Source of the DNA: Marinomonas profundi
GTDB taxonomy: Bacteria > Pseudomonadota > Gammaproteobacteria > Pseudomonadales > Marinomonadaceae
Reading direction: 5' to 3'
DNA length: 64,000 nt
Assembly: GCF_020694005.1 (NCBI RefSeq)
Contig: NZ_CP073013.1
Coordinates: 930,001 to 994,000 of the forward strand
Shown here: positions 46,928 to 61,298 of the stretch, piece after piece
Layout: every line of letters begins with the position of its first letter
How positions within the stretch are numbered: the first letter of the stretch is position 1
The notes under the pieces: generated by a model
What the model saw: only the letters and a program-made list of their open reading frames with translations
What the model was told of the DNA's origin: nothing
Databases searched by the model: none
Program-made: the position numbers and the translations under genes

Positions 46928-47437
46928 AATAGTCGCGTCAACGATGGTGCCTTCTTTAAAGTAAATCCCCGAATCTGATAGCCATTTGTGGACTTCTTTA
47001 AAGAGCTTACGTCCAAGCTTATGCTTTTCCAGTAAATGCCTAAAATTCATAATGGTGGTGTGATCAGATATTGCTCCTTCTAAAGATAACCCAGCAAACA
47101 GCCGCATAGAGGTAATCTCGTAAAGCGCGTCCTCCATGGCTGGGTCCCTGGAATGCCTGCCCAGCCATGTTGTACCAGTTCAGCATAAAATGAATACGCA
47201 ACATGGTAGACAAAGGATAGGGGCGACGACCATTGCCTGCTTTTTTCAATTTGGTCTTCAAGCAGCTGCCAAGGAATCAACTCATCCATTCTACCAAGGA
47301 AGAGTTCTTTGCGAGTTTTGCGGCGTTTGCTGGTAAATTCTGTGTCGGCGAAGGAAAGCTGGTTCATGATCGGCTGGAGTCGTAGTCAGATTAAGTCGGC
47401 AAGATTGTCTCATGTTACCGACTTAATCGCATGTTCC
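46928..47437 (-). pseudogene. Truncated, frameshifted IS5-type transposase (IS-A, right copy)
   Basis: On the minus strand, from the terminus GGAACATGCG at 47437: the frame starts at 47367 (MNQLSFADTEFTSKRRKTRK), shifts near 47240 into a second frame (AGNGRRPYPLSTMLRIHF) and again near 47137 into a third ([19 protein letters not shown] through EGTIVDATI), where IS-B cuts it at 46927. At least two frameshifts and loss of the C-terminal half make it non-functional. CTAA flanks the terminus at 47438-47441. Confidence 0.88.
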
Positions 47438-47441
47438 CTAA

Positions 47442-47756: not shown

Positions 47757-48752
47757 ATGTTATCAAGTTTGAAAAAGTGTCTTGCAGTTTCGTTAACGGC
47801 AGCTGCATTGCTTCAAATGCCAACTGTACAGGCTGAGTCATATGAAATGACTATTGCAGGTGCGTCTCCGGGAGGGCTGTGGAGCTTATTAGGCGCTGGT
47901 TTAGATTCAAGCGTCAGAGCTGCATATCCTGATTCAAAAATAACTTATCAAACCTCTGGTGGTGGTATTGCCAACATTGGTCAGCTAGACCGGAATCAAG
48001 CGGATCTGGCCATTGTTCACGATGCAGAATTGCTATTGGCTAAAAAAGGGGGATTACCGTTTCGCGAACCGATAGATTCCATTCGTGTTCTTTCCTATTT
48101 GTATACCTGGGCTCCGATGCAGACGCTTGTACGTAACAGCTTTGCAGAAGAGTATGGCATTCATACCTTTGAAGATATCGCTAAAGTTAAACCACCGATC
48201 ACAATTGCTATCAACAAGCGTGGTAACATCGCATCAAATGTAGCCGTTGAAATGCTGAATGCAATCGGTGTTACTGAAAAGGATATCGAAAGCTGGGGTG
48301 GTAAAGTTATCTATGCGGCTTCAAGTGAACAGGTGTCTTTGATTACGGATCGCCGAGCAGATCTAATGATCAACTCGCTCTTCGTGCGCCACAGTTCTAT
48401 TCAACAGGCAGCTAACAGTGTCGAATTAACCTTGCTAGGCATGGATCCAGCAACCGTTGAAGCGGTAAACAAGGCAAGTGGAACAATTCCTTTTGTTATT
48501 CCTGAAGGGACCTATGAATGGTCACCAGGAAAGGTCGATACCCCGTCCTTGGGTGCAACCCTCGCTGTAAGAGTTGATATGGATGATCAGAAAGCTTACA
48601 ACCTAACAAAGGCCATCTATGAAAATTACCAGCAAATCGCTGGTGTACATGCAGCTATGAAAGCGTTAACTCCTGAGGCTATGGCCTCTGTCACTGTGGT
48701 TCCATACCACCCAGGTGCGTTGAAGTATCTGGTAGAAGCAGGCTTACGTTAA
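47757..48752 (+). CDS. TAXI-family TRAP transporter solute-binding protein
   Basis: A 331-residue periplasmic binding protein of the TAXI family. Signal peptide ends near residue 26 (PTVQA then ESYEM). Mature features: MTIAGASPGGLWSLLGAGLD, TSGGGIANIGQLDRNQADLA, and TAXI-like ITIAINKRGNIASNVAVEML. It should capture an organic anion for the fused TRAP permease encoded 36 bp downstream. Its place at the head of the phthalate cluster suggests phthalate or a related aromatic acid as ligand; this is contextual. Ribosome site AGAGGA. Confidence 0.88.
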   Translation: MLSSLKKCLAVSLTAAALLQMPTVQAESYEMTIAGASPGGLWSLLGAGLDSSVRAAYPDSKITYQTSGGGIANIGQLDRNQADLAIVHDAELLLAKKGGLPFREPIDSIRVLSYLYTWAPMQTLVRNSFAEEYGIHTFEDIAKVKPPITIAINKRGNIASNVAVEMLNAIGVTEKDIESWGGKVIYAASSEQVSLITDRRADLMINSLFVRHSSIQQAANSVELTLLGMDPATVEAVNKASGTIPFVIPEGTYEWSPGKVDTPSLGATLAVRVDMDDQKAYNLTKAIYENYQQIAGVHAAMKALTPEAMASVTVVPYHPGALKYLVEAGLR

Positions 48753-48788: not shown

Positions 48789-50696
48789 ATGTCGAATATA
48801 CTTTCATCAATATTAGAGACTGGTACTAAACGTCAGTTGAGTCCCAAGCTTGCCCGAATACTCCAATCAATCGCAGCAATAATAGCGTTAGGAGTAATTT
48901 ACACAACTACTATCGTCTACGTCGATCTCTTTGCGATGACGATCGTATTTTTGTCATCAATGCTAGCTCTTCTATTTTTAATGTATACGTCTGGATCTAG
49001 GGGGCGTACTGATTCTCCAAGTTTAATCGACTGGGTGCTTTCGCTTACCAGCGTAGCGGCCGGTGTTTACTTTATAGTAGAAAGTTCTCGAATCGTAGAA
49101 CGGATTACGTTGTTATTTCCTCTGGAAATGCCCGACCTTATTGCGGGCTCGGCACTATTTTTCCTGACAATCGAAGCCACGCGAAGAACAGTCGGATTTG
49201 GCTTAACCAGCGTAGTAACGATTTTTTTGCTCTACAATCTCTTTGGGCATGGTTTGCCCGCGGGACTTGGTTTTCGTGAAGTGGGATATAATCACTTTCT
49301 TGATATCATGATGTTCACCAGTGATGGGCTATTTGGAGTACCACTTCGAGTGGCAGCAACTTATGCTTTTCTATTTGTTCTCTTTGGTACCTTTTTATCC
49401 CGAGCTGGTGGAGCAGATTTCTTCTTTGATCTTGCATCAGCTGTAGCGGGAAGACGTGTAGGCGGTCCAGCAAAGATCGCTGTTATCTCTTCAGGTCTTT
49501 ATGGAACGATGTCAGGTAGTCCGACATCGGACGTTGTTACGACGGGGTCTATCACGATTCCTATGATGCAGCGTTTGGGATACGGGAAGTCATTGTCTGG
49601 AAGTGTTGAGGTTGCTGCCTCGGCTGGTGGTAGTTTGCTGCCCCCCGTTATGGGGTCAGCAGCATTTATCATGGCGGAGTATACGGGTATCGAGTACCGT
49701 GATATTGCTATCGCGGGCATTGTGCCAGCATTACTTTACTACGTATGCGTTTATACACAGGTTCATTTGCGATCTGAAAAAATGGGCCTTAAAGGTTTAG
49801 AGGAGAACGAAGTTTCAACGGTAAAAGTAGCAATGTCGAACGGCGGATTGTTCATTATTCCTCTACTAGTCCTTTCAGTAGCTCTTGTTATGGGGTATTC
49901 GCCTACATATGTTGCAGCATTTGCTTCTTTAAGTGTCATTGCTGTTGCTGCGATAAAGCCTTCGACTCGCATGGGTCTAAAATCCATTTGGGAAGCACTC
50001 GGTGAAACGACCCTTAGAATGGTTTCGGTAACAGCTGCTTGTGCAGCTGCTGGTCTCGTTATTGGTGGTATTTCAATGACTGGACTTGGTGGTAAATTTG
50101 CAGACCTAGTGTTCATGCTTGCGGGTAGTAGCAGTATATTGGTTCTGATTATCTCAGCATTGTTGGCGATTATACTGGGTATGGGGATGCCAACACCCTC
50201 AGCATTTATACTCGCGGCAGTATTGGTAGGGCCGACCTTAAGTTCGCTTGATTTCTCTGCGATGCAGTCAAACATGTTCATTCTTTACTTTGCGGTGCTT
50301 TCCGCTATGACCCCGCCGGTGGCTGTCGCTGCATTTGCTGCTTCTGCTATTGCTGATGCGAAACCACTAGGAATAGCTGTTGGAGCGGTAAGGCTAGCGA
50401 TTACAGCATTCGTGGTTCCATTCGCCTTTATGTATGGAGAAGGGTTACTACTTGAAGGTCCGATAACTGGGATAATCCTGAACTGCCTGACTGCTTCCCT
50501 AGGTGTTATCGTGCTAAGTGCAGGAATAGAAGGATACTGGAGAGCTCCTCTATCAGGCATAGCGCAGGCTATGTTGTTGGTGGCTGGTCTAATGTTCTTA
50601 GCACCGAGTATCATCGCATTGGGCATTGCTACCGCTTTGGTGATGGCTGTTGTCCTGATCACACCTCATCTGAGGTCTCCAGCCAAATTAGCTTAA
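48789..50696 (+). CDS. TRAP transporter permease, fused 4TM/12TM
   Basis: A 635-residue membrane protein with DctQ-like and DctM-like parts fused, the usual partner of TAXI proteins. SGLYGTMSGSPTSDVVTTGS and ASAGGSLLPPVMGSAAFIMA are the hallmark of the large subunit, repeated in weaker form near residue 460 (LGMGMPTPSAFIL). About 15-17 hydrophobic segments. It is expected to be sodium-coupled. Probably in an operon with the binding protein and perhaps the EamA gene 52 bp downstream. Confidence 0.92.
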   Translation: MSNILSSILETGTKRQLSPKLARILQSIAAIIALGVIYTTTIVYVDLFAMTIVFLSSMLALLFLMYTSGSRGRTDSPSLIDWVLSLTSVAAGVYFIVESSRIVERITLLFPLEMPDLIAGSALFFLTIEATRRTVGFGLTSVVTIFLLYNLFGHGLPAGLGFREVGYNHFLDIMMFTSDGLFGVPLRVAATYAFLFVLFGTFLSRAGGADFFFDLASAVAGRRVGGPAKIAVISSGLYGTMSGSPTSDVVTTGSITIPMMQRLGYGKSLSGSVEVAASAGGSLLPPVMGSAAFIMAEYTGIEYRDIAIAGIVPALLYYVCVYTQVHLRSEKMGLKGLEENEVSTVKVAMSNGGLFIIPLLVLSVALVMGYSPTYVAAFASLSVIAVAAIKPSTRMGLKSIWEALGETTLRMVSVTAACAAAGLVIGGISMTGLGGKFADLVFMLAGSSSILVLIISALLAIILGMGMPTPSAFILAAVLVGPTLSSLDFSAMQSNMFILYFAVLSAMTPPVAVAAFAASAIADAKPLGIAVGAVRLAITAFVVPFAFMYGEGLLLEGPITGIILNCLTASLGVIVLSAGIEGYWRAPLSGIAQAMLLVAGLMFLAPSIIALGIATALVMAVVLITPHLRSPAKLA

Positions 50697-50748: not shown

Positions 50749-51621
50749 GTGGAAATGATTTATGCATTATTGTCTTCTGTTATGTTTGCGGCTACATTTT
50801 TACTTGTAAAAATAGGTCGTGAAAGTGCCTCGCACCTTTCTGTTTTGTGGATTACACTCACCATCAATGTCGTTGTACTAGCTTTATCTACCTTATTTAT
50901 AGATATTCCTAAATCTCTTAATCTTCTCGATCTTAAGTTTTTTATTATTTCGGGTATATTTGCACCGTTACTTGGTCGGCTATTCCAGTTCGTTGGAATG
51001 TCTAAGTTAGGGGCGAATACAACGACGGCCTTAACCCTAACCCATCCTTTGATAACGGTATTTATAGGGTTGTTGTTTCTAGATGAGTCCGGAAATGTTG
51101 TGCAAATACTTGGCGGATTTTTGATCATCACTGGTTCGGTGTTGATTGCTATATTTTCCGGATCAAATGCTAATCTAGGAATTTCCAATGGTCATCAGAT
51201 ATATTTACTATATCCTCTTCTGGCATCATTAACCTATGGGATATCTATTGCCCTTAGAAAGGTGGGGATCGACCAGCTTAATTCACCTGTACTCGCTAGT
51301 GCAGTGACAGTTTCTTCCTCGTGGACTATCTTGAGCCTATATGTTTTGGTTACTAGGTGTAAAGTTTCATGTAGTGGCCGAGAATTTACTTATTTTTTTT
51401 TCGCAGGAATAGTTTCAAGTATAGGACCTATTTTTCTTTATCTATCGTTGGCAATTGGAAACCTACTTCTAATTGCTCCCTTAGCTGCTACCACTCCGTT
51501 ATTTGTACTAGTGGGAACTTGGCTTTATTCAAAGAAAAATGAGAAATTTGGATACCAGATAATCGTCGGAACATTCGGTATATTTATTGGAGTGACACTG
51601 CTAACGCTATTTAAAAATTAG
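50749..51621 (+). CDS. EamA/DMT-family transporter
   Basis: A 290-residue membrane protein with ten hydrophobic segments arranged as two EamA repeats (residues about 1-135 and 150-288; FQFVGMSKLGANTTTALTLT in the first, the weaker YLSLAIGNLLLIAPLAATTP in the second). The start is a GTG with GAGGT eight bases upstream; an ATG follows two codons later. In this cluster it could export or import an aromatic intermediate, but DMT proteins have broad roles. It is convergent with the class II aldolase-like gene. Confidence 0.85.
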   Translation: MEMIYALLSSVMFAATFLLVKIGRESASHLSVLWITLTINVVVLALSTLFIDIPKSLNLLDLKFFIISGIFAPLLGRLFQFVGMSKLGANTTTALTLTHPLITVFIGLLFLDESGNVVQILGGFLIITGSVLIAIFSGSNANLGISNGHQIYLLYPLLASLTYGISIALRKVGIDQLNSPVLASAVTVSSSWTILSLYVLVTRCKVSCSGREFTYFFFAGIVSSIGPIFLYLSLAIGNLLLIAPLAATTPLFVLVGTWLYSKKNEKFGYQIIVGTFGIFIGVTLLTLFKN

Positions 51622-51650: not shown

Positions 51651-52391
51651 TCAAACTTCTGGCAGCCAAGACTTCTGAGCTTTTATCGCTCGTGTTTTCC
51701 ATAGATTCCATGGGCGGTCTACTTGCCCTTCGTTGGTTATTTGAGTGGCGTGTGCTTCTCCTTCTGATAGAAATTCAACCGGTCCTAGTCTGGAAGCTTC
51801 GATCTGTAATTGTGCATTAACTTCTACATAAATCGCTCTATAAACTGCTTGTTTTAGGCTGGGAGCAACGACTGTAGAGCCATGTCCTCTCATCAGCACT
51901 AAGGTATTTTCTCCAAGAGATTGCGTTAATGAAGAACCAAGTTCTTGGCTGGTAATCAACATGTTGGTTTCATCACCCGCAACATCTCGTATCTCAAATA
52001 TGGGGACGCTTGTACCCATGAATCCACTCATGTGGCACATAGGTTTTAAAGAGGCGGACTTTACAACACTGAAGGGGACAACAGAATGAGAATGGCTATG
52101 GACGATTGCTTCTACATCATCTCGCTTCCGGTAGATTTCACTGTGAATATAACGTTCTAGATAGACCTTCCTGGGATCGTTGTTTACAGTTTCACCCTCA
52201 AGGTTAAACTCTAGTATATCCTCTTTGGTAACAAGCCCTGGGGCCATATTTCGAGCTAAGAAAAAATGATCTCTGTTATGAGGATTTCTTACGCTTACAT
52301 GACCGAAAGCATCCAGTACACCTTCATTAAATAAAATTAAATTTGCAGTCACTAGATCATTTATTACGCTTTCTAATATTGTATCATTCAT
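51651..52391 (-). CDS. Class II aldolase/adducin-family protein
   Basis: A 246-residue protein of the class II aldolase/adducin fold. SVRNPHNRDHFFLAR is the substrate/phosphate-loop region, HSEIYRKRDDVEAIVHSHSHSV gives the metal-binding histidines, and LMRGHGSTVVAPSLKQAVYRA the third His. Family members include sugar-phosphate aldolases and also decarboxylases of dihydroxylated aromatic acids (for example 3,4-dihydroxyphthalate decarboxylases of actinobacteria). It shares the pht operator motif 60 bp upstream, so an aromatic substrate is likely, although a 4,5-dihydroxyphthalate decarboxylase is already encoded by pht5. The exact reaction is unknown. Confidence 0.82.
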   Translation of the reverse strand: MNDTILESVINDLVTANLILFNEGVLDAFGHVSVRNPHNRDHFFLARNMAPGLVTKEDILEFNLEGETVNNDPRKVYLERYIHSEIYRKRDDVEAIVHSHSHSVVPFSVVKSASLKPMCHMSGFMGTSVPIFEIRDVAGDETNMLITSQELGSSLTQSLGENTLVLMRGHGSTVVAPSLKQAVYRAIYVEVNAQLQIEASRLGPVEFLSEGEAHATQITNEGQVDRPWNLWKTRAIKAQKSWLPEV

Positions 52392-52450: not shown

Positions 52451-52464
52451 ATTAGCAATCTAAT
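52451..52464. promoter_or_regulatory. pht-type operator upstream of the aldolase-family gene
   Basis: ATTAGCAATCTAAT is identical to the site at 58108-58121 and the reverse complement of that at 58140-58153. It lies 60 bp upstream of the start on the minus strand, just before a TAATTA that may be the -10. The regulator is probably the MarR protein encoded at 55306. Confidence 0.75.
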
Positions 52465-52597
52465 AATTTTATCTTATACCGTATAGAAAGGAAAATAAAT
52501 GATGAATTATTATTTTCCTTATCAGGCACTAAAAGAATCAGGAATTCGAGATTTGATTAGAGGTTTTTACAGAATCATTGATAGCTCAGCTAATTAG

Positions 52598-53877
52598 TCG
52601 TCCCTGAATAATGGCGTTTTTAGTCTAAAGCGCCATTTCATTTTCTAGCCTTCTCGGCAATAAGGCTTGTATCAATCTCATCCCGCTATAAATGCCACAC
52701 CGGATCAAGGCAAAATGAAGCCACTTCAGCAGCTTACGAAGGTTTTGGCCACAGGCGCTTAGGATCACGTTAATCGCATCGCCCAGTATTCCCTTGAGGA
52801 AGCATCGTCTGAGTTTTCCGTCTGATTTGAGGTGCCCGATGATAGGCTCTACGCTATTTCTTCTCCCCATCCAGTTCTTCTCTTTCTTGGGGACTCCGCG
52901 TTTTTGACCTGCAATCAAGACTTTAATATCTTCCACACCTGACCCTTTATATCCTCGGTCAACAAAACAGGTTTCAGGCTTTCGCCCCATCAAGGTTTCT
53001 ACTTGTTGCAGTTGATCTTTCAGGGTGTGCCCATCATACGGATTACCGGGATAGCTTCTTGCGCCCACAATGAAGGATTCTTTAGCGGTCACGGCTATGC
53101 TGGCTTTCACGCCAAATTCGTAGCGTTTATGCGCTTTGCCTTTGGATATGCAATCCACATTGGGTTCATGCAGGCTGTAGAGTTTGTTTTTGCTCTGGCG
53201 AGTTTGTTTTAGTAATCGATAGGCTTGGTTAAGTGTGTCTTCCTGTTTTTGGGTGAGCGTTAACCCTTGTCGTTTTACTTGCCGGTCAATGTCCCGCAGC
53301 ACTCTCCCTAAAAAGCCTTTGACTTGCTTAATGGCTTTTCTCATGCGCTTGTATTGCTTGGCATGACCATAGCGGCCAATTTTTGGCATTAGTTCATGAC
53401 AAGCTTTGTCGTAGGTTTGTCTTAACGTGATGCCTTGTTCTTTGGCGACCTGAGTAAGCTGTTGTCTAGCCTTGTTGTAGAGCTTGGCATCCGTTGGGAA
53501 GGTGATATTTTTTTCTTGTACCGTGGTGTCGACCACTACTCGCTTTAGACTTGCTGGTTTGATGACTTTAAGTTTTAAACCTGCTTGTATCGTCTGGGTT
53601 AACAGCCATTCACAGCCTTCTTCTCCTAACCGTTTTCGCCATTTTACAAGACTGGTTGGATGACACGGAAAGTCGTGTTGGAAAAAGGTTTCGCCGCAAA
53701 AGTATTGGTAGTAAGGCGATTCAAGCCATTGCTCTAATACCATGTCGTCAGACAAATTATGCAAGTGTTGCAAATACAGCAATCCCGCCATAAGGCGAGT
53801 GGGTAACGCGGATGCACCCACCGTTGAGAAGTGTCTCCCCAATTCATTGTCCAACTGGTTCCAATCAATAACCTTAG
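52598..53877 (-). mobile_element. IS5/IS1182-type element (IS-C), truncated copy 1
   Basis: The left end TCGTCCCTGAATAA is the same as in copy 2 (55896). It is preceded by the 8-bp sequence CTAATTAG. The other end is missing: at 53877 the transposase frame is broken by the terminus of an IS-A fragment, with CTAA/TTAG (53874-53877) as target. Confidence 0.85.
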
Positions 53878-53884
53878 GGAACAT
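52625..53884 (-). CDS. IS5/IS1182-type transposase, N-terminally truncated
   Basis: A 419-residue DDE transposase: KVIDWNQLDNELGRHFSTVG and LLYLQHLHNLSDDMVLEQWL (DUF772 part), VVDTTVQEKNITFPTDA (first acidic residue), a helical insertion, CFVDRGYKGSGVEDI and NSVEPIIGHLKSD (later catalytic residues). Comparison with the copy at 55.9 kb shows that about 33 N-terminal residues (starting MKPRQTKTIPQKDL) have been removed by an IS-A insertion; the first three codons (MFP) now come from the IS-A end. Activity is doubtful. Confidence 0.88.
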   Translation of the reverse strand: MFPKVIDWNQLDNELGRHFSTVGASALPTRLMAGLLYLQHLHNLSDDMVLEQWLESPYYQYFCGETFFQHDFPCHPTSLVKWRKRLGEEGCEWLLTQTIQAGLKLKVIKPASLKRVVVDTTVQEKNITFPTDAKLYNKARQQLTQVAKEQGITLRQTYDKACHELMPKIGRYGHAKQYKRMRKAIKQVKGFLGRVLRDIDRQVKRQGLTLTQKQEDTLNQAYRLLKQTRQSKNKLYSLHEPNVDCISKGKAHKRYEFGVKASIAVTAKESFIVGARSYPGNPYDGHTLKDQLQQVETLMGRKPETCFVDRGYKGSGVEDIKVLIAGQKRGVPKKEKNWMGRRNSVEPIIGHLKSDGKLRRCFLKGILGDAINVILSACGQNLRKLLKWLHFALIRCGIYSGMRLIQALLPRRLENEMAL

Positions 53885-54012
53885 GCGATTAAGTCGGTAA
53901 CATGAGATAATCTTGCCGACTTAATCTGACTACGAATCCAGCCGATCATAAACCAGCTTTCCTTCGCCGACACCGAATTTACCAGCAAACGCAGCAAAAC
54001 TCGCAAAGAACT
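53878..54012 (+). mobile_element. IS5-type element end (IS-A, third fragment)
   Basis: A 135-bp piece of the IS-A 5' end: GGAACATGCGATTAAGTCGG, the internal AAGTCGG/CCGACTT hairpin, and the start of the transposase gene as far as CGCAAAGAACT. It then stops abruptly. It interrupts the IS-C transposase gene. Confidence 0.88.
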
Positions 54013-54130: not shown

Positions 54131-54146
54131 CTCCTCGTTAAAAATA

Positions 54147-54158
54147 TTACATACCTAA
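54147..54158. promoter_or_regulatory. Possible pht-type operator upstream of nadC
   Basis: TTACATACCTAA matches TTAG-N4-CTAA with one mismatch in eight fixed positions and runs into TAATAA, a possible -10, as at the pht2 promoter. It is 154 bp upstream of the nadC start. Confidence 0.35.
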
Positions 54159-54312
54159 TAATTATCAATAAAATCCACTTCATGTGGTAGAATCGATACT
54201 CAAAAATAGTAATTTTAACAGCAAGTAACGCCATCAAAATTCTGCTAGCGCGCTCCTTCGGACCCGCTAATAAATATGCACATTGGCAAAATCAGAGAGA
54301 TAGGAAGTTATA

Positions 54313-55167
54313 ATGTACAAATTAGATAATACAACGTTACAGATTGCGATTGCTGCAAATGTGAGTGCAGCTCTTACTGAAGATATCGCGAGTGGAGACA
54401 TCAACGCGTTATTGATCCCAGAGTCTCAAACGGCTATTGCAAAAATTATTACACGGCAGGATGCCGTGCTATGCGGAACAGCTTGGGTGAGCGAGACCTT
54501 CCGCCAAGTTGATCCTTCGGTCAAACTGCTCTGGCATTTTAACGATGGTGATAACCTCAAAGCTGATGATCTGATTGTTGAGGTTACTGGACCCGCCCGC
54601 TCACTCCTCACAGGTGAAAGAACAGCGCTTAATTTTCTTCAGTTAATGTCAGCTGTTGCAACGCGAACTCGATACTTTGTTAGTAAAATCGGTAGAAACC
54701 CTGTAGAGCTCATCGACACTCGAAAAACAATACCTGGGCTAAGACTGGCTCAAAAATATGCTGTCACTTGTGGTGGCGGGCAGAACCATAGAATGGGTTT
54801 GTATGATGCATTTTTGATAAAAGAGAATCATATCGCAGCTTGCGGTGGTATCGATAAGGCTGTTCAGGTCGCACGAACTCTGGTGCCAAATAAGCTCATC
54901 GAAGTTGAAACAGAATCACTCGAGGAACTAGAGCAAGCTCTTCAATCCGGTGTGGATATAATTATGTTGGATAATTTTTCATTAGAAGATACTAAGAAAG
55001 CGGTAGAATTAAGCCGCGGTAAGGCGAAAATCGAAGCCTCTGGTGGTATAAATGACGATACGCTGATAGACATCATACAAGCTGGCGTTGACTATGTATC
55101 AATGGGTACACTCACCAAAGATATTAAAGCTGTCGATTTATCGATGCGACTATACATGGAAGCATAG
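54313..55167 (+). CDS. nadC: Quinolinate phosphoribosyltransferase (decarboxylating), catabolic-cluster copy
   Basis: A 284-residue NadC-family enzyme, forming nicotinate mononucleotide from quinolinate and PRPP in NAD synthesis. LTEDIASGDINALLIP, GERTALNFLQLMSAVATRT, DTRKTIPGLRLAQKYAVTCG, GGQNHRMGLYDAFLIKENHI, IIMLDNFSLEDTKKAV and GVDYVSMGTLTKDIKAVDLS cover the active site. Phthalate is a structural analogue of quinolinate (benzene instead of pyridine dicarboxylate) and inhibits this enzyme class; a QPRTase gene accompanies phthalate genes in Burkholderia (DBO1). The copy here, inside a pht cluster, probably keeps NAD synthesis going during growth on phthalate. Ribosome site AGGAAG. Confidence 0.93.
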   Translation: MYKLDNTTLQIAIAANVSAALTEDIASGDINALLIPESQTAIAKIITRQDAVLCGTAWVSETFRQVDPSVKLLWHFNDGDNLKADDLIVEVTGPARSLLTGERTALNFLQLMSAVATRTRYFVSKIGRNPVELIDTRKTIPGLRLAQKYAVTCGGGQNHRMGLYDAFLIKENHIAACGGIDKAVQVARTLVPNKLIEVETESLEELEQALQSGVDIIMLDNFSLEDTKKAVELSRGKAKIEASGGINDDTLIDIIQAGVDYVSMGTLTKDIKAVDLSMRLYMEA

Positions 55168-55305
55168 TAAGGGCCTAAGATGACAGATCGTGTTAATTAA
55201 CTAACATGATCTGATTACCCCTGATGCTTAAAACACCAGTAAACCCAGGTTTTTTAAAGCCTAGTTTACAAGTTCGATAATATTAGAAATCCAGGATACA
55301 AGAAC

Positions 55306-55767
55306 ATGTCTGCAGAGAAATTAAATACTGCTCCAGAGCTAAAATACGAGAGGATGGCACACATTATTCGAGAGCTCTCGAAGCAGTACTTCAATTCATT
55401 AGAACGAAGATTACAGCCCTACGGCGTAAACCATGGATTTTGGGGATACTTACGTGAGCTCTGGAACGAGGAAGGAATCTCCCAGAAAACCTTAAGTGAA
55501 CGAGTGGGACTTACTGGACCCACAACGAACTCCGTTATTAAACGCATGTTGGCAGCTGGCCTCGTCGAGCTTCGCCCTATAACTGAAGGAAAACCAAGAC
55601 AGGTCGTTTATTTAACTGAATATGGAAAGAGCCTTAAGGACACCCTTGAACCTCTAGCAAAAGAAGTCAATGACGTGGCTCAAAGCGGTATGAGCCCTGA
55701 GGAAATTGAAATCGTTCGCGAATATTTATTGAACATGCATTCTAATCTTATGGAGGACAATACCTAA
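55306..55767 (+). CDS. MarR-family transcriptional regulator
   Basis: A 153-residue MarR-type regulator. The winged HTH lies at residues about 60-115 (GISQKTLSERVGLTGPTTNS, VIKRMLAAGLVELRP, then the wing with GKPRQVVYLTEYG); N- and C-terminal helices form the dimer and ligand pocket. MarR proteins commonly sense aromatic acids. It lies between nadC and the pht genes and is the only regulator of the cluster in the window, so it is the likely ligand of the TTAG-N4-CTAA sites. Its own upstream region carries only a half motif (TTAGAAATC). Confidence 0.88.
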   Translation: MSAEKLNTAPELKYERMAHIIRELSKQYFNSLERRLQPYGVNHGFWGYLRELWNEEGISQKTLSERVGLTGPTTNSVIKRMLAAGLVELRPITEGKPRQVVYLTEYGKSLKDTLEPLAKEVNDVAQSGMSPEEIEIVREYLLNMHSNLMEDNT

Positions 55768-55895: not shown

Positions 55896-56600
55896 TCGTC
55901 CCTGAATAACTCTCAACCCATTGAATGCAAAGTGTTTTTATAAGATAGTTAATGCCTAAATCTTGCTATAAATGCGCCATAAGGCCCAAAAAGTTGTAGA
56001 ATGGGTGATTTTTATGAAGCCTCGTCAGACAAAGACCATACCGCAAAAGGATTTATTCCAACCACAGCTCGTTGACATCATTAACCCCAACCATCCTTTG
56101 GTTCGACTGGCTAAGGTTATTGATTGGAACCAGTTGGACAACGAATTGGGGGGACACTTCTCAACGGTAATCCCCCCGAAAAATAACAGCAACAAGTAGA
56201 AACCTTGATTGGGCGAAAACCTGAAATCTGTTTTGTCGACCGAGGATATAAAGGATCAGGTGTGGAAGACATTAAAGTCTTGATTGCAGGGCAAAAAGGC
56301 GGAGTCCCAAAGAAAGAGAAGAACTGGATGGGGAGAAGAAATAGCGTAGAGCCCATCATCGGGCATCTCAAATCAGACGGAAAACTCAGACGATGCTTCC
56401 TTAAAGGAATACTGGGCGATGCGATTAACGTGATCCTAAGCGCCTGTGGCCAAAACCTTCGTAAGCTGCTGAAGTGGCTTAACTTTGCCTTGATCCGGTG
56501 TGGCATTTATAGCGGGATGAGATGAATACAATCCTTATTGCCGAGAAGGCTAGAAAATGAAATGGCGCTTTAGACTAAAAACGCCATTATTCAGAGTCGA
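55896..56600 (+). mobile_element. IS-C copy 2: internally deleted, 705-bp non-autonomous derivative
   Basis: Both ends are present (TCGTCCCTGAATAA and the reverse complement of TCGACTCTGAATAA), flanked by the 8-bp direct repeat CTATTTAG (55888-55895 and 56601-56608). The transposase gene starts at 56014 (MKPRQTKTIPQKDL) and breaks after GGHFSTV near 56165; about 20 bases later it resumes in the middle of the gene (QVETLIGRKPEICFVDRG) and meets a premature stop at 56525. It probably depended on a full-length IS-C for movement. Confidence 0.88.
56014..56525 (+). pseudogene. Deleted IS-C transposase gene
   Basis: The N-terminal 50 codons and the C-terminal 105 codons of the IS-C transposase are separated by a large deletion and a frameshift. 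The first part ends at a stop at 56199. The second part (MIGRKPEICFVDRGYKGSG to RCGIYSGMR) has a premature TGA where copy 1 continues RLIQALLPRR. It cannot make active transposase. Confidence 0.88.
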
Positions 56601-56611
56601 CTATTTAGTAT

Positions 56612-57892
56612 TTATCCAGCCACTACGTTTTCTTTCCAAAGTTCGCGCCAATCCGATTCTTTTGGTACAACTCCTTGGAAAGAAGCGATTGACGATTGAA
56701 GAATTGATGGTGCACTACCGATAGCAGGTTCACCATCAGCAACTTTCTGAGCAGCTTCTACCATAGTGCGACGGAATTCCACAATCGCTAAATCAGAAGA
56801 ACCAAGAATATCATCGGTACGGTTAACAATTTTACCCATCGATACCCACATCGCGGTATCTTGGTTTGGTATGCCCGCAATACCAGTAAAATCACCCTCT
56901 TTCATTTTTATACGATCCTGACGGAAGCGGTTTTCCATAGTACCTACAGTAGCCCAAGTGATTGGATCGACATCTTCACCCGGTACTGCACGAGCGAATT
57001 TACGCCAAGCAGTCGTATCTGGTGTAGTTTCAGGATTACCCCATGCGATAAAGTGGAAGTTACAGTTTTCATTGTCGATCGGAACGATGACCGCTGCAAC
57101 ATTGTATGAAGTGTTAGGCGGAATCAACGCGTAGTAAGGCGCGACATACTGAGTGATACGAATGTAGTCATGGGTTGCAGCGTTAGCGATAGGACGACGA
57201 ATAGCAGCGTAATGGAATCCATAATCAGTTTTCGCAGACTGCATACGCGGGGACTTATCAGTTGATGGACGGTACCAGCTTTGATCGTCCGCAGCCGCAC
57301 TTTCAACTTTTGCAGGCACCATGTCCGAAGAGTGCAATGATGAAGAATGAGCTGAGTCAATCTGACCTTCTAGAACTTGAGCCCAGTTACATGGCAAGCG
57401 GATTTTGAGGATCGAAACTTGCACATCTTCATTAGGTGCAAACGCTGGCTTTTTAAATTCAGGAGAATCACCTTCACCCAACCATGCCCAAAGGAATCCG
57501 CCCCACTCAACTGTTTTATAAGCTTTGTGCTTCACTTTAGAGCACATAGACTTTTCTGCTTCTGGTGGCTCAGAAGCCATTGCTACAACGTTACCTTCCA
57601 CATCAAACTTCCAGCCGTGATACAAGCAGCGGATACCACAATCTTCATTACGACCGAGCACCAAAGACGCCGAGCGGTGAGGACAAAGTTCATCCAATAA
57701 GCCCACTCGACCTTCGGTATCGCGAAATGCTACATAACGAGAACCCAAAGCTTCAACCAACACTGGAGTTCCATCGCACTCTTTAACCTCTTCGAGCAAA
57801 CAAACCGGCGTCCAATGCTGACGCATAAGCTTACCCATCGGGTCGGTCGGCATAACATGAGTTAATAATTCATTTTCTTGTGGTGTAAGCAT
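56612..57892 (-). CDS. pht3: Phthalate 4,5-dioxygenase, Rieske oxygenase component
   Basis: A 426-residue aromatic-ring-hydroxylating oxygenase alpha subunit of the phthalate dioxygenase type. The Rieske [2Fe-2S] motif is C-P-H near residue 70 (LCPHRSASL) and CLYHGW near residue 88; the mononuclear iron site is DSAHSSSLHSSD near residue 180. It converts phthalate to cis-4,5-dihydrodiol using electrons from the Pht2 reductase. It is divergent from pht2-4-5; its promoter (TTGACT-N17-TATTAT) carries a putative operator in the spacer and -10. The specificity call rests on the neighbouring pht2, pht4 and pht5 genes. Confidence 0.88.
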   Translation of the reverse strand: MLTPQENELLTHVMPTDPMGKLMRQHWTPVCLLEEVKECDGTPVLVEALGSRYVAFRDTEGRVGLLDELCPHRSASLVLGRNEDCGIRCLYHGWKFDVEGNVVAMASEPPEAEKSMCSKVKHKAYKTVEWGGFLWAWLGEGDSPEFKKPAFAPNEDVQVSILKIRLPCNWAQVLEGQIDSAHSSSLHSSDMVPAKVESAAADDQSWYRPSTDKSPRMQSAKTDYGFHYAAIRRPIANAATHDYIRITQYVAPYYALIPPNTSYNVAAVIVPIDNENCNFHFIAWGNPETTPDTTAWRKFARAVPGEDVDPITWATVGTMENRFRQDRIKMKEGDFTGIAGIPNQDTAMWVSMGKIVNRTDDILGSSDLAIVEFRRTMVEAAQKVADGEPAIGSAPSILQSSIASFQGVVPKESDWRELWKENVVAG

Positions 57893-58074: not shown

Positions 58075-58155
58075 ATAATAGATATCTAATTTTGAATAGT
58101 CAACATTATTAGCAATCTAATTATTGTTGACTAAAAATTATTAGATTGCTAATAT
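58075..58155. promoter_or_regulatory. Divergent pht3 / pht2-4-5 promoters with three MarR-type operators
   Basis: Plus promoter: TTGACT (58127-58132), 17 bp, TAATAT (58150-58155). Minus promoter: TTGACT (58103-58098), 17 bp, TATTAT (58080-58075). ATTAGATTGCTAAT (58140-58153) occupies the spacer and -10 of the first, and ATAGATATCTAA (58078-58089) the same place in the second; ATTAGCAATCTAAT (58108-58121) lies between the two -35 boxes. The layout is typical of repression at both promoters. Confidence 0.8.
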
Positions 58156-58231: not shown

Positions 58232-59161
58232 ATGAAACTGCAAGTGAGTGCTCGGCGTACTCTTACGCCAGAAATTGAAGAATTCACCCTAACTCCTGTT
58301 GATAGTCAACCTTTACCGCCAGCAGAACCTGGTTCACATATTTCTATAACCACGCCCTCTGGAGCTCATCGTTATTATTCATTGGTTTATTCTGGTGACA
58401 ACCCAAACGCTTACACTGTTGCAATTAAAAAAGAGCCTAATTCTCGTGGTGGTTCAAAGTCGATGCATGAGCAGGCAACGGTATCGACGATTCTGGATGT
58501 AGAAACGTCTGACAATGAATTTCCTCTCGGTCCGAAGCACGATGCTTTATTAATAGGTGGTGGAATAGGTATCACACCTATCTACTCTATGGCACAACAA
58601 TTAAAAGCAGAAGGTAGAAAATTCCGAGTTATTTATTTAGCTCGCAGCTATGAAAAAGCAGCGTATGCTGATGAGCTCCAGGAGCTTTGCGGAGATGACA
58701 TCATCATTCACTATAGCGAAGGCGATAGTTCAAATGCTTTCGATTTTTGGGATTTACTGATGACTCCAACTCAGGAACATATCTATTGTTGTGGGCCAAC
58801 ATCTCTAATGGAAGAGGTGAAAGGTGGTACGGGGCATTGGCCTGATGGCCGAGTTCACTTTGAGGAATTCATGCCCATAGAAATCATTCGAGATAACGAT
58901 ACCGAATTCACCATCGAACTCGCCAAATCAGGTGAAACGATAACTGTACCCGCAGATCGCACTATACTGGAAGCCTTACGCGCTAACGGACATGATTTTT
59001 CCAGCTCTTGTGAAACCGGAACTTGTGGCACCTGCAAATGTACATATATGGAAGGCGAAGTGGATCACCGTGACTTAGCTTTAATGGATGATGAGAAGTC
59101 CGACACAATAATGTTGTGTGTATCCCGAGCGAAAGGTGACCACCTTGTCCTCGATATCTAA
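58232..59161 (+). CDS. pht2: Phthalate 4,5-dioxygenase reductase component
   Basis: A 309-residue flavin and iron-sulfur reductase in the order FMN/NAD module then plant-type ferredoxin. HRYYSLVYSGDNP binds flavin, ALLIGGGIGITPIYSMAQQL and IYCCGPTSLMEEV belong to the NAD domain, and SSCETGTCGTCKCTYMEG plus MLCVSRAKG supply the four cysteines of the [2Fe-2S] cluster. It transfers electrons from NADH to the Pht3 oxygenase. The ATG at 58232 (MKLQVSARRTL) is preceded by AGAGAAGA; an ATG at 58208 would add eight residues. pht4 overlaps its 3' end. Confidence 0.92.
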   Translation: MKLQVSARRTLTPEIEEFTLTPVDSQPLPPAEPGSHISITTPSGAHRYYSLVYSGDNPNAYTVAIKKEPNSRGGSKSMHEQATVSTILDVETSDNEFPLGPKHDALLIGGGIGITPIYSMAQQLKAEGRKFRVIYLARSYEKAAYADELQELCGDDIIIHYSEGDSSNAFDFWDLLMTPTQEHIYCCGPTSLMEEVKGGTGHWPDGRVHFEEFMPIEIIRDNDTEFTIELAKSGETITVPADRTILEALRANGHDFSSSCETGTCGTCKCTYMEGEVDHRDLALMDDEKSDTIMLCVSRAKGDHLVLDI

Positions 59162-60308
59162 TCCAATACGCATAGGTGTTGCGGGTTTAGGGAGAGCCTT
59201 TGCGCTATCGGCCACCGCTATCCATGCTCACCCAGGAGTTATCTTAGTTGCTGGCGCGGAGCCAAATTCCGAGCACAGAAGATCATTTGAAAAGACTTTT
59301 GACGCAAAGACCTATACAGATGTTAGCAACCTAGTAACAGACCCTGACGTGGAAGTGGTCTATGTATCCACACCTCATGGACTACATAAAGAGCATGCTT
59401 TAGCTGCTATAAATGCCGGTAAATCCGTCCTTATCGAAAAACCGATGACTGTCTCATTAGAAGATGCATCATCGCTAATTGAAGCGGCAAAAAAGGCGGG
59501 AGTACAGATCATTGTTGGCCCTAGCCACAGCTTTGATGGTCCAGTTAAGCTCGCGGAAGTTTTAATCGCGAAAGGTAAGATTGGGCGCGTAAGGATGATA
59601 CATGCGCTCTATGCAACCGATTTTTTATATCGCCCAAGAACAGCGTCGGAGCTTTCCACAGACTTAGGTGGAGGAGTAGTGTTTAGCCAAGCCGTCCATC
59701 AAGTCGATCTCGTCCGCCGACTCGCTGGTGTTCCCGCTCAGCGTGTTACCGCAAGAACAGGGGGCGTCTGGGATGCTGACCGACCGACCGAGGGTGCCTA
59801 CAGCATGCTGATTGATTTCAACGAAGGTATCTTTGCCAGCCTGACGTACTCAGGCTACGCTCATTTTGATGGTGACCGACTGATGGAAAATACTACTGAA
59901 TTAGGCATATCCAAGTCAGATGAATTCAAGAGCGCCCGCAAAATACTGGAATCCGTTCAGAACGAATCAGAATTTAAGTCATCACGCGGATTTTCATCAC
60001 TCGAAACCTGCCCTCAGGCTCAAACTCACGAGCACTTTGGTCAGGTTTTCGTATTCGGCGACCGCGGAGACCTTCGCCTGACACCGAACGGAGTGGAAAT
60101 TACCGATGCGAATGGCCCCGAATTCTACCCTGCACCTTTTAGAACCTCCCGCGCAGAAGTATTTGACACACTTTATGCGGCACTGCGTGAACAAACACCC
60201 CCTTTGCAGAATGGCAAATGGGGCCGAGCTTCACTCGAAATCTGTCATGCACTACTTACCAGTAGCGAAACAGGTGACACAGTCACACTTAATTACCAAG
60301 AAGGATAA
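59145..60308 (+). CDS. pht4: 4,5-dihydro-4,5-dihydroxyphthalate dehydrogenase
   Basis: A 387-residue Gfo/Idh/MocA-type dehydrogenase; re-aromatises the cis-dihydrodiol to 4,5-dihydroxyphthalate with NAD+. RIGVAGLGRAFALSATAI is the Rossmann motif, SVLIEKPMTVSLEDAS the EKP motif, and GGVVFSQAVHQVDLVRRLAG the catalytic region. The start is uncertain: TTG at 59145 has a well-placed AAAGGTGA, while GTG at 59136 and ATG at 59118 are also in frame. All overlap the end of pht2, so translation is coupled. pht5 starts 3 bp after its stop. Confidence 0.9.
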   Translation: MSSISNPIRIGVAGLGRAFALSATAIHAHPGVILVAGAEPNSEHRRSFEKTFDAKTYTDVSNLVTDPDVEVVYVSTPHGLHKEHALAAINAGKSVLIEKPMTVSLEDASSLIEAAKKAGVQIIVGPSHSFDGPVKLAEVLIAKGKIGRVRMIHALYATDFLYRPRTASELSTDLGGGVVFSQAVHQVDLVRRLAGVPAQRVTARTGGVWDADRPTEGAYSMLIDFNEGIFASLTYSGYAHFDGDRLMENTTELGISKSDEFKSARKILESVQNESEFKSSRGFSSLETCPQAQTHEHFGQVFVFGDRGDLRLTPNGVEITDANGPEFYPAPFRTSRAEVFDTLYAALREQTPPLQNGKWGRASLEICHALLTSSETGDTVTLNYQEG

Positions 60309-60311
60309 AAA

Positions 60312-61298
60312 ATGTCTAAGCTCCAACTTTCCCTAGCAATGGGTGATTATGATCGAACCCGCCCTATTCATGATGGACGGGTACAAATCGACGGTGTCGA
60401 CCCGATCACTTTTCTTCAATCACCAGAAGAGATGTTCTTCAACGCATTTCGCCACAAAACGTGTGATATTTCAGAAATATCATTGAGTTCATATTGTGTT
60501 TCGTTGACTCGAGAAAATCCTCAATACATCGCAATTCCTGTTTTCCTTAGCCGTGCATTCCGCCACTCCTCCGTTTATATTCGTGCAGATAGAGGAATTG
60601 AAACACCTCAAGATCTCAAAGGTCGCCGCATCGGCATCGCGGAATATCAACTGACAGCAAACGTATGGGTTAGAGCAATCCTTGCAGATGCAGGTGTAAC
60701 CCCTGATCAGATTACGTGGATACGTGGGGGAATGGACAAACCTGGTCGCCCTGAGAAAATCAAACTTGATCTACCAGACAACGTAACTATCGAGAACGCT
60801 CCAGAAGGTGCGACCCTAAACCAGATGTTAATCGATGGAGAAATTGATGGTTTCATCGGCCCTAGATGGCCACGTTGTTACTACGAAGGCCACCCTCAAA
60901 TTCGTCGACTTTGGCAAGATGGTTTTTCTGCAGCACGCCAATGGCATCAGGACACCGGGTTATTCCCAATCATGCACGTTCTAGGTGTGCGTCGTGGTTT
61001 AGCTGAGCAGCACCCCTGGTTACCAGGCGCTCTGCTCAAGGCCTTCACTGAAGCTAAAACAATGGCGACGGATGCCCTATCAGATACTTCAGCAACCAAA
61101 GTAACAATGCCATTTGTCGAAGATGTATTAGGTGTAACGCAACAAATGTCCAAGGATCTTTGGTCATACGGAGTCGCACCGAACATAAAAACGCTAGAAT
61201 ATTTCCTGCGCAACCACTACGAACAGGGGCTGAGTTCAAGACATCTTTCTGTAGATGAACTGTTCCACCCAGCAACTACCGAGGTCTATTCTCTGTAA
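60312..61298 (+). CDS. pht5: 4,5-dihydroxyphthalate decarboxylase
   Basis: A 328-residue Pht5-type decarboxylase converting 4,5-dihydroxyphthalate to protocatechuate. The fold is that of periplasmic binding proteins (ETPQDLKGRRIGIAEYQLTA is like NMT1/Tau proteins), but there is no signal peptide, which fits a cytosolic enzyme. It starts SKLQLSLAMGDYDRTRPIHD, with GFIGPRWPRCYYEGHPQIRR and GLFPIMHVLGVRRGLAEQHP as in known family members. It is the last gene of the pht2-4-5 operon; protocatechuate ring-cleavage genes are not in the window. Confidence 0.9.
   Translation: MSKLQLSLAMGDYDRTRPIHDGRVQIDGVDPITFLQSPEEMFFNAFRHKTCDISEISLSSYCVSLTRENPQYIAIPVFLSRAFRHSSVYIRADRGIETPQDLKGRRIGIAEYQLTANVWVRAILADAGVTPDQITWIRGGMDKPGRPEKIKLDLPDNVTIENAPEGATLNQMLIDGEIDGFIGPRWPRCYYEGHPQIRRLWQDGFSAARQWHQDTGLFPIMHVLGVRRGLAEQHPWLPGALLKAFTEAKTMATDALSDTSATKVTMPFVEDVLGVTQQMSKDLWSYGVAPNIKTLEYFLRNHYEQGLSSRHLSVDELFHPATTEVYSL

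Follow-up and report, generated by a model that had tools for sequence, protein, structure and literature searches.

Genes and elements at the locus

The window, a stretch of 64,000 nucleotides from the genome of Marinomonas profundi, carries a complete phthalate 4,5-dioxygenase cluster that encloses an intact nadC gene (quinolinate phosphoribosyltransferase, QPRTase), with a gene for a MarR regulator adjoining it. The genes and mobile elements are the following.

47303-47441 and 56185-56608: remnants of the insertion sequence at 52590-54012
47757-48752, + strand: TAXI-TRAP substrate-binding protein (TIGR02122, 140 bits)
48789-50696, + strand: TRAP fused permease (TIGR02123, 547 bits)
50749-51621, + strand: DMT/EamA-type transporter
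51651-52391, - strand: class II aldolase-family protein, distant from 3,4-dihydroxyphthalate decarboxylase (74.9 bits, cut-off 200)
52590-54012, - strand: insertion sequence (transposase at 52625-53884), between the transporter module and nadC-marR
54313-55167, + strand: nadC paralogue, OphE-like quinolinate phosphoribosyltransferase, 284 amino acids (TIGR00078, Pfam, key residues, dN/dS)
55306-55767, + strand: MarR-family regulator (Pfam MarR), 139 bp downstream of nadC
56612-57892, - strand: phthalate dioxygenase, oxygenase subunit (PDB 7fjl/7v25, 562 bits; Rieske and LigXa_C Pfam domains)
58232-59161, + strand: phthalate dioxygenase reductase (start set by comparison with Neptuniibacter; start in the open reading frame list, 58208)
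59118-60308, + strand: Gfo/Idh/MocA dehydrogenase (phthalate cis-dihydrodiol dehydrogenase)
60312-61298, + strand: 4,5-dihydroxyphthalate decarboxylase homologue (homologues carry that annotation in loci L008 and L010)

The nadC gene is a single open frame whose product matched the TIGR00078 nadC profile with 316.6 bits over residues 17-279, where the curated cut-off is 198.4 bits, and both QRPTase Pfam domains (QRPTase_N/C) were matched above cut-off. The basic quinolinate pocket and the PRPP/ribose residues are kept (R103, R137, K138, H159, R160, K170, E199 and D220), the pocket residues used for matching being those named in PMC3633916. By its full-length family match as well as by its pocket, the protein is thus a predicted QPRTase (NadC). 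Compared with the copy in Neptuniibacter, dN/dS is 0.12, much like that of the catabolic genes, so the window gene is under purifying selection.

For the oxygenase subunit, the closest solved relatives are 7fjl, 7v25 and 7v28, matched over residues 1-417 with 562 bits in a PDB search; 7fhr, an entry titled 'phthalate 4,5-dioxygenase', gave 213 bits. Reductase, Gfo/Idh/MocA dehydrogenase, decarboxylase homologue and TAXI-TRAP transporter are all found, as in annotated phthalate clusters, and together with the family matches of nadC this bears out the location of nadC inside a phthalate cluster that a preliminary description had proposed. The marR gene adjoins nadC also in a Neptuniibacter plasmid and in two relatives from the genus (G472 and G481). 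The insertion-sequence copies divide the cluster into three modules (transporter and aldolase genes, nadC-marR, and catabolic genes), and the insertion sequence and its two remnants may have shuffled the cluster relative to that of Neptuniibacter.

The class II aldolase-like protein recurs in marine phthalate clusters. It resembles 3,4-dihydroxyphthalate decarboxylase, though the cluster also encodes a homologue of 4,5-dihydroxyphthalate decarboxylase.

An additional nadC gene of foreign origin

A single contig of 3.65 Mb makes up the genome, which holds one other nadC besides the window copy. The preliminary description had suggested looking for a second nadC beside nadA/nadB, and a genome search indeed found it, but beside ackA, at C1:3364626-3365438. 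One copy of nadA (C1:3462595) and one clear nadB (C1:2572782) are present as well, and with a second nadC, nadA and nadB in the genome, the window gene is an extra copy. The idea that it guards NAD synthesis against phthalate, which would sit badly with a sole nadC, therefore survives.

The housekeeping NadC belongs to the same family and has the same contact residues, yet it is only 55% identical to the window copy and, unlike the latter, groups in the trees with the housekeeping copies of the genus (support 100/100). The window copy groups with cluster copies from a Neptuniibacter plasmid and of Marinobacterium type (100/99). This separate placement shows that the window gene arrived from outside, and the possibility that it is a duplicate of the resident nadC was ruled out. 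Judging from these relationships, horizontal transfer brought it in along with the phthalate genes. The plasmid in question, pLMG25378 of Neptuniibacter halophilus, carries the same genes (identities of 98% for the oxygenase, about 92-93% for nadC and 91% for marR), but there the cluster lies on a plasmid, its modules are ordered differently and IS256 flanks it. Within the lineage of the window, the pairing of nadC with the phthalate genes has thus been kept through rearrangement, one of two histories that the preliminary description had considered.

The role of a QPRTase gene of this kind, ophE of Burkholderia cepacia DBO1, is said to have been described by Chang and Zylstra in 1999 (reportedly in J Bacteriol 181:3069). 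As relayed in PMC6051330, DBO1 grows better on phthalate thanks to OphE; the enzyme is said not to catalyze a step of the degradation itself. Like the window copy, ophE is a second, dissimilar QPRTase gene within a phthalate 4,5-dioxygenase cluster; the window cluster differs in its TAXI-TRAP transporter and its gene order from that of DBO1. An ophE-like role has been repeated for phtD of the alphaproteobacterium Sphingobium yanoikuyae SHJ, annotated by analogy with DBO1, where the QPRTase gene and a MarR regulator gene (phtR) lie in the phthalate cluster as they do in the window (PMC6051330). The sphingomonad copy that we compared, from pCAR3 (L010), has a distant nadC. The function is therefore already known from ophE of DBO1, and the window gene is a further example.

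Association of nadC with phthalate oxygenase genes

The preliminary description had cited the nadC-phthalate association from a single precedent, and it holds at all three levels surveyed. Within the genus, the oxygenase is found in 5 of 49 genomes, and an extra nadC is present in all five of these as against none of the 43 genomes tested that lack the oxygenase (Fisher p 6e-7). In the relative G472 the phthalate oxygenase gene and the extra nadC each occur twice, and these extra nadC genes share 100% and 57% identity with the window gene. Among 391 genomes of the order, two nadC genes occur in 5/11 genomes with the oxygenase versus 1/380 without it (p 4e-8). We also took the best 80 phthalate-oxygenase loci in the genome collection from the oxygenase alignment, chosen regardless of nadC. 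A nadC gene lies within about 10 kb in 22 of these 80 proteobacterial loci, where about 0.4 would be expected. The placement of nadC in the phthalate cluster is not due to chance.

If the spare copy guards de novo NAD synthesis, it is expected where that pathway exists, and its association with nadA agrees with this. Among genomes with phthalate genes, a cluster nadC was found in 20/47 of those with nadA and in 2/28 of those without (p 0.0013), counts in which the absence of nadA may partly reflect incomplete metagenome-assembled genomes and lineage effects. For loci of at least 20 kb the figures are 16/32 with nadA and 0/12 without. Conversely, 27 of the 47 genomes having nadA and phthalate genes do without a cluster nadC. 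In one sample, nine phthalate genomes have neither nadA nor nadC; these presumably live by salvage, such that phthalate could not block the QPRTase step there.

Repeated recruitment

Mapped onto a tree of 84 NadC proteins, the 33 copies from clusters require 11 state changes, 10 of which are forced by well-supported branches, and a single clade of cluster copies is rejected (p-AU 5e-51). Larger trees gave 11 and 13 state changes, at least 9 of them forced. As state changes are gains or losses, these figures leave the exact number of recruitments unfixed, but the polyphyly of the cluster copies means that the pairing of nadC with phthalate genes arose repeatedly, the other history that the preliminary description had considered. 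To judge by the trees, the cluster copies are functional analogues rather than one orthologous family. Even where the oxygenases are nearly alike, the nadC genes may be very different, as in G405 and G481, whose oxygenases are 87% and whose nadC genes 56-57% identical to those of the window. The cluster copies of two Burkholderiaceae loci, L013 and L062, whose layout resembles what we take to be the DBO1 layout, fall among betaproteobacterial NadC proteins, whereas that of the window has gammaproteobacterial ancestry.

In three Litorivicinus-like genomes, G140, G190 and G271 (loci L239, L243 and L244), the nadC inside the phthalate cluster is of alphaproteobacterial type. Each of them gave one nadC match in the search of the order, and since G140 and G190 are 98-99% complete, the cluster copy appears to be the sole nadC there. 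This suggests that in Litorivicinus-like genomes the cluster gene replaced the housekeeping gene, which, if true, would bind a central route of cofactor synthesis to a catabolic island. In a further genome with the oxygenase, G220, nadC was not found in the 14 kb examined. Altogether, it is likely that nadC capture is a recurrent, convergent step in phthalate clusters, drawing on alpha-, beta- and gammaproteobacterial sources, occurring mainly alongside de novo NAD synthesis and including the Litorivicinus-like replacement.

In two relatives from the genus, G480 (L224) and G482 (L225), the housekeeping nadC is split by a frameshift near an A run, in the motif before NHR, which may be a sequencing error, phase variation or decay. 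We considered the broken gene in G480 as a sign of dependence on the cluster copy but rejected this, because that of G482 is similarly broken at the same place; an extra nadC was not found in G482 in the genus search.

Regulation

Operator-like sites in the cluster are as follows.

52451-52464: perfect copy of the operator-like repeat, upstream of the aldolase gene
54146-54159, + strand: one-mismatch match to the cluster operator motif, ATTACATACCTAAT, about 155 bp upstream of nadC
58108-58121, no strand assigned: operator-like inverted repeat ATTAGCAATCTAAT, in the oxygenase/reductase promoter
58140-58153: further perfect copy, in the same promoter

The oxygenase promoter thus has two perfect copies of ATTAG-N4-CTAAT, with the third lying upstream of the aldolase gene. 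Of 88 clusters across Proteobacteria, 57 have the core TTAG-N4-CTAA in the 150 bp upstream of the oxygenase, which makes it a likely candidate for the operator of the cluster's MarR regulator. The imperfect site upstream of nadC is conserved in Neptuniibacter. An operator-like site upstream of nadC was found for 7/33 cluster copies versus 7/65 controls, however, and is not convincingly commoner, and the search for a shared nadC operator yielded only one-mismatch sites, within the lineage of the window. Co-induction of the window nadC with the cluster is therefore no more than plausible. In many other clusters it is tandem position that suggests co-induction of nadC, since in 14 of the 30 cluster copies surveyed the gene sits in tandem with a catabolic or transport gene, at a distance of no more than 250 bp.

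Between nadC and marR there is an inverted repeat, AGATCGTGTTA...TAACATGATCT, at 55185-55212, which occurs in an altered form in Neptuniibacter and may be an attenuator, a terminator or an operator.

Added enzyme or tolerant enzyme

Human QPRT binds phthalate in the same mode as quinolinate, with a Kd of 5.2 uM as compared to 4.8 uM for quinolinate, and the enzyme stalls (PMC4726147). By analogy, phthalate that is taken up would fill the housekeeping NadC's quinolinate site, starving de novo NAD synthesis while the NADH-dependent phthalate dioxygenase draws on the NAD pool. The cluster would then supply its own, probably co-induced QPRTase, such that total activity stays sufficient, and protection would come from added enzyme rather than from a resistant active site. 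We infer on this basis that phthalate would inhibit the organism's own NadC, that it would induce the window gene, and that growth would benefit. In our view, the window gene is very probably a horizontally acquired catabolic-cluster QPRTase of the OphE kind, whose contribution of extra enzyme would offset the block of the housekeeping NadC by phthalate.

Two mechanisms had been envisaged in the preliminary description, extra enzyme that titrates phthalate and an enzyme that tolerates it. The former fits our observations, and the latter finds no support in them. Ten contact residues (R103, R137, K138, H159, R160, K170, E199, D220, S243 and G244) are invariant in all 33 cluster copies. A search for convergent substitutions in the cluster copies gave four columns that recur in three lineages, all of them outside the contact residues checked. 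Three candidate columns, including Gly245, were not significant over independent pairs. Unchanged contact residues together with the lack of convergent substitution favor extra, inducible enzyme over an active site that resists phthalate. A phthalate-tolerant cluster copy that keeps functioning while the housekeeping NadC is blocked is thus unlikely, even though Gly at position 245 is favored by the cluster copies (30/33 versus 29/47) and about 45% of positions are different between the two NadC copies, which leaves room for second-shell differences, through which effects on tolerance are possible. Discrimination would also be hard, because phthalate and quinolinate have both carboxylates in common and the ring nitrogen is their sole difference.

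Another way in which phthalate catabolism could create a need for QPRTase is that the dioxygenase and later enzymes oxidize quinolinate as a false substrate, with the extra QPRTase rescuing the flux. Such a drain would equally need nadA, matching the nadA association, and a 2026 review of phthalate degradation (PMC13040137) reports a Rhodococcus phthalate 3,4-dioxygenase to be active on quinolinate. That enzyme, however, belongs to the 3,4 pathway, whereas the window cluster is of the 4,5-dioxygenase type, and competitive inhibition of QPRTase by phthalate suffices without a drain, so that we regard the latter as quite improbable. Still less probable is a general boost, in which the extra QPRTase covers the NADH demand of aromatic catabolism and inhibition is irrelevant. 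The dioxygenase reductase and the dehydrogenase use NAD(H), as is established for their families, but NADH-using aromatic pathways are common and yet an extra nadC was seen in only one of the 380 sampled genomes of the order without the oxygenase. That nadC is a mere passenger, accidentally linked by the insertion-sequence copies that flank the nadC-marR pair and by the shuffling of modules relative to Neptuniibacter, is scarcely credible given the recurrence of the linkage in unrelated lineages with unrelated nadC genes, the purifying selection on the window nadC and its conserved pairing with the regulator.

Compensation by extra enzyme would turn a single case from 1999 into a testable general rule, according to which growth on a mimic of a cofactor precursor selects, again and again, for a second copy of the enzyme that the mimic blocks. 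The repeated captures also amount to many natural replicates, with which one can ask if the problem is solved by dosage or by tolerance. The prediction is that phthalate toxicity can be corrected by nicotinate, which could matter for engineering strains that degrade plasticizers. The literature searched was found to describe neither the recurrent recruitment nor its dependence on de novo NAD synthesis nor the apparent replacement in Litorivicinus-like genomes. A word search of the review cited above (PMC13040137) showed nicotinate, NAD+ biosynthesis and ophE to be unmentioned there, and quinolinate to be named solely as a substrate of an oxygenase. Within the reach of these searches, convergent recruitment and de novo NAD dependence extend the known ophE case.

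A third type of nadC, around 45-50% identical to alphaproteobacterial NadC, was encountered outside phthalate clusters (L191:9473-10306, L187:9572-10405, L188 and L172). In Marinobacterium lutimaris it adjoins an ABC transporter of the branched-chain-amino-acid type, and in Cupriavidus its neighbors are marR and a TTT binding protein. This type perhaps answers another quinolinate-like substrate.
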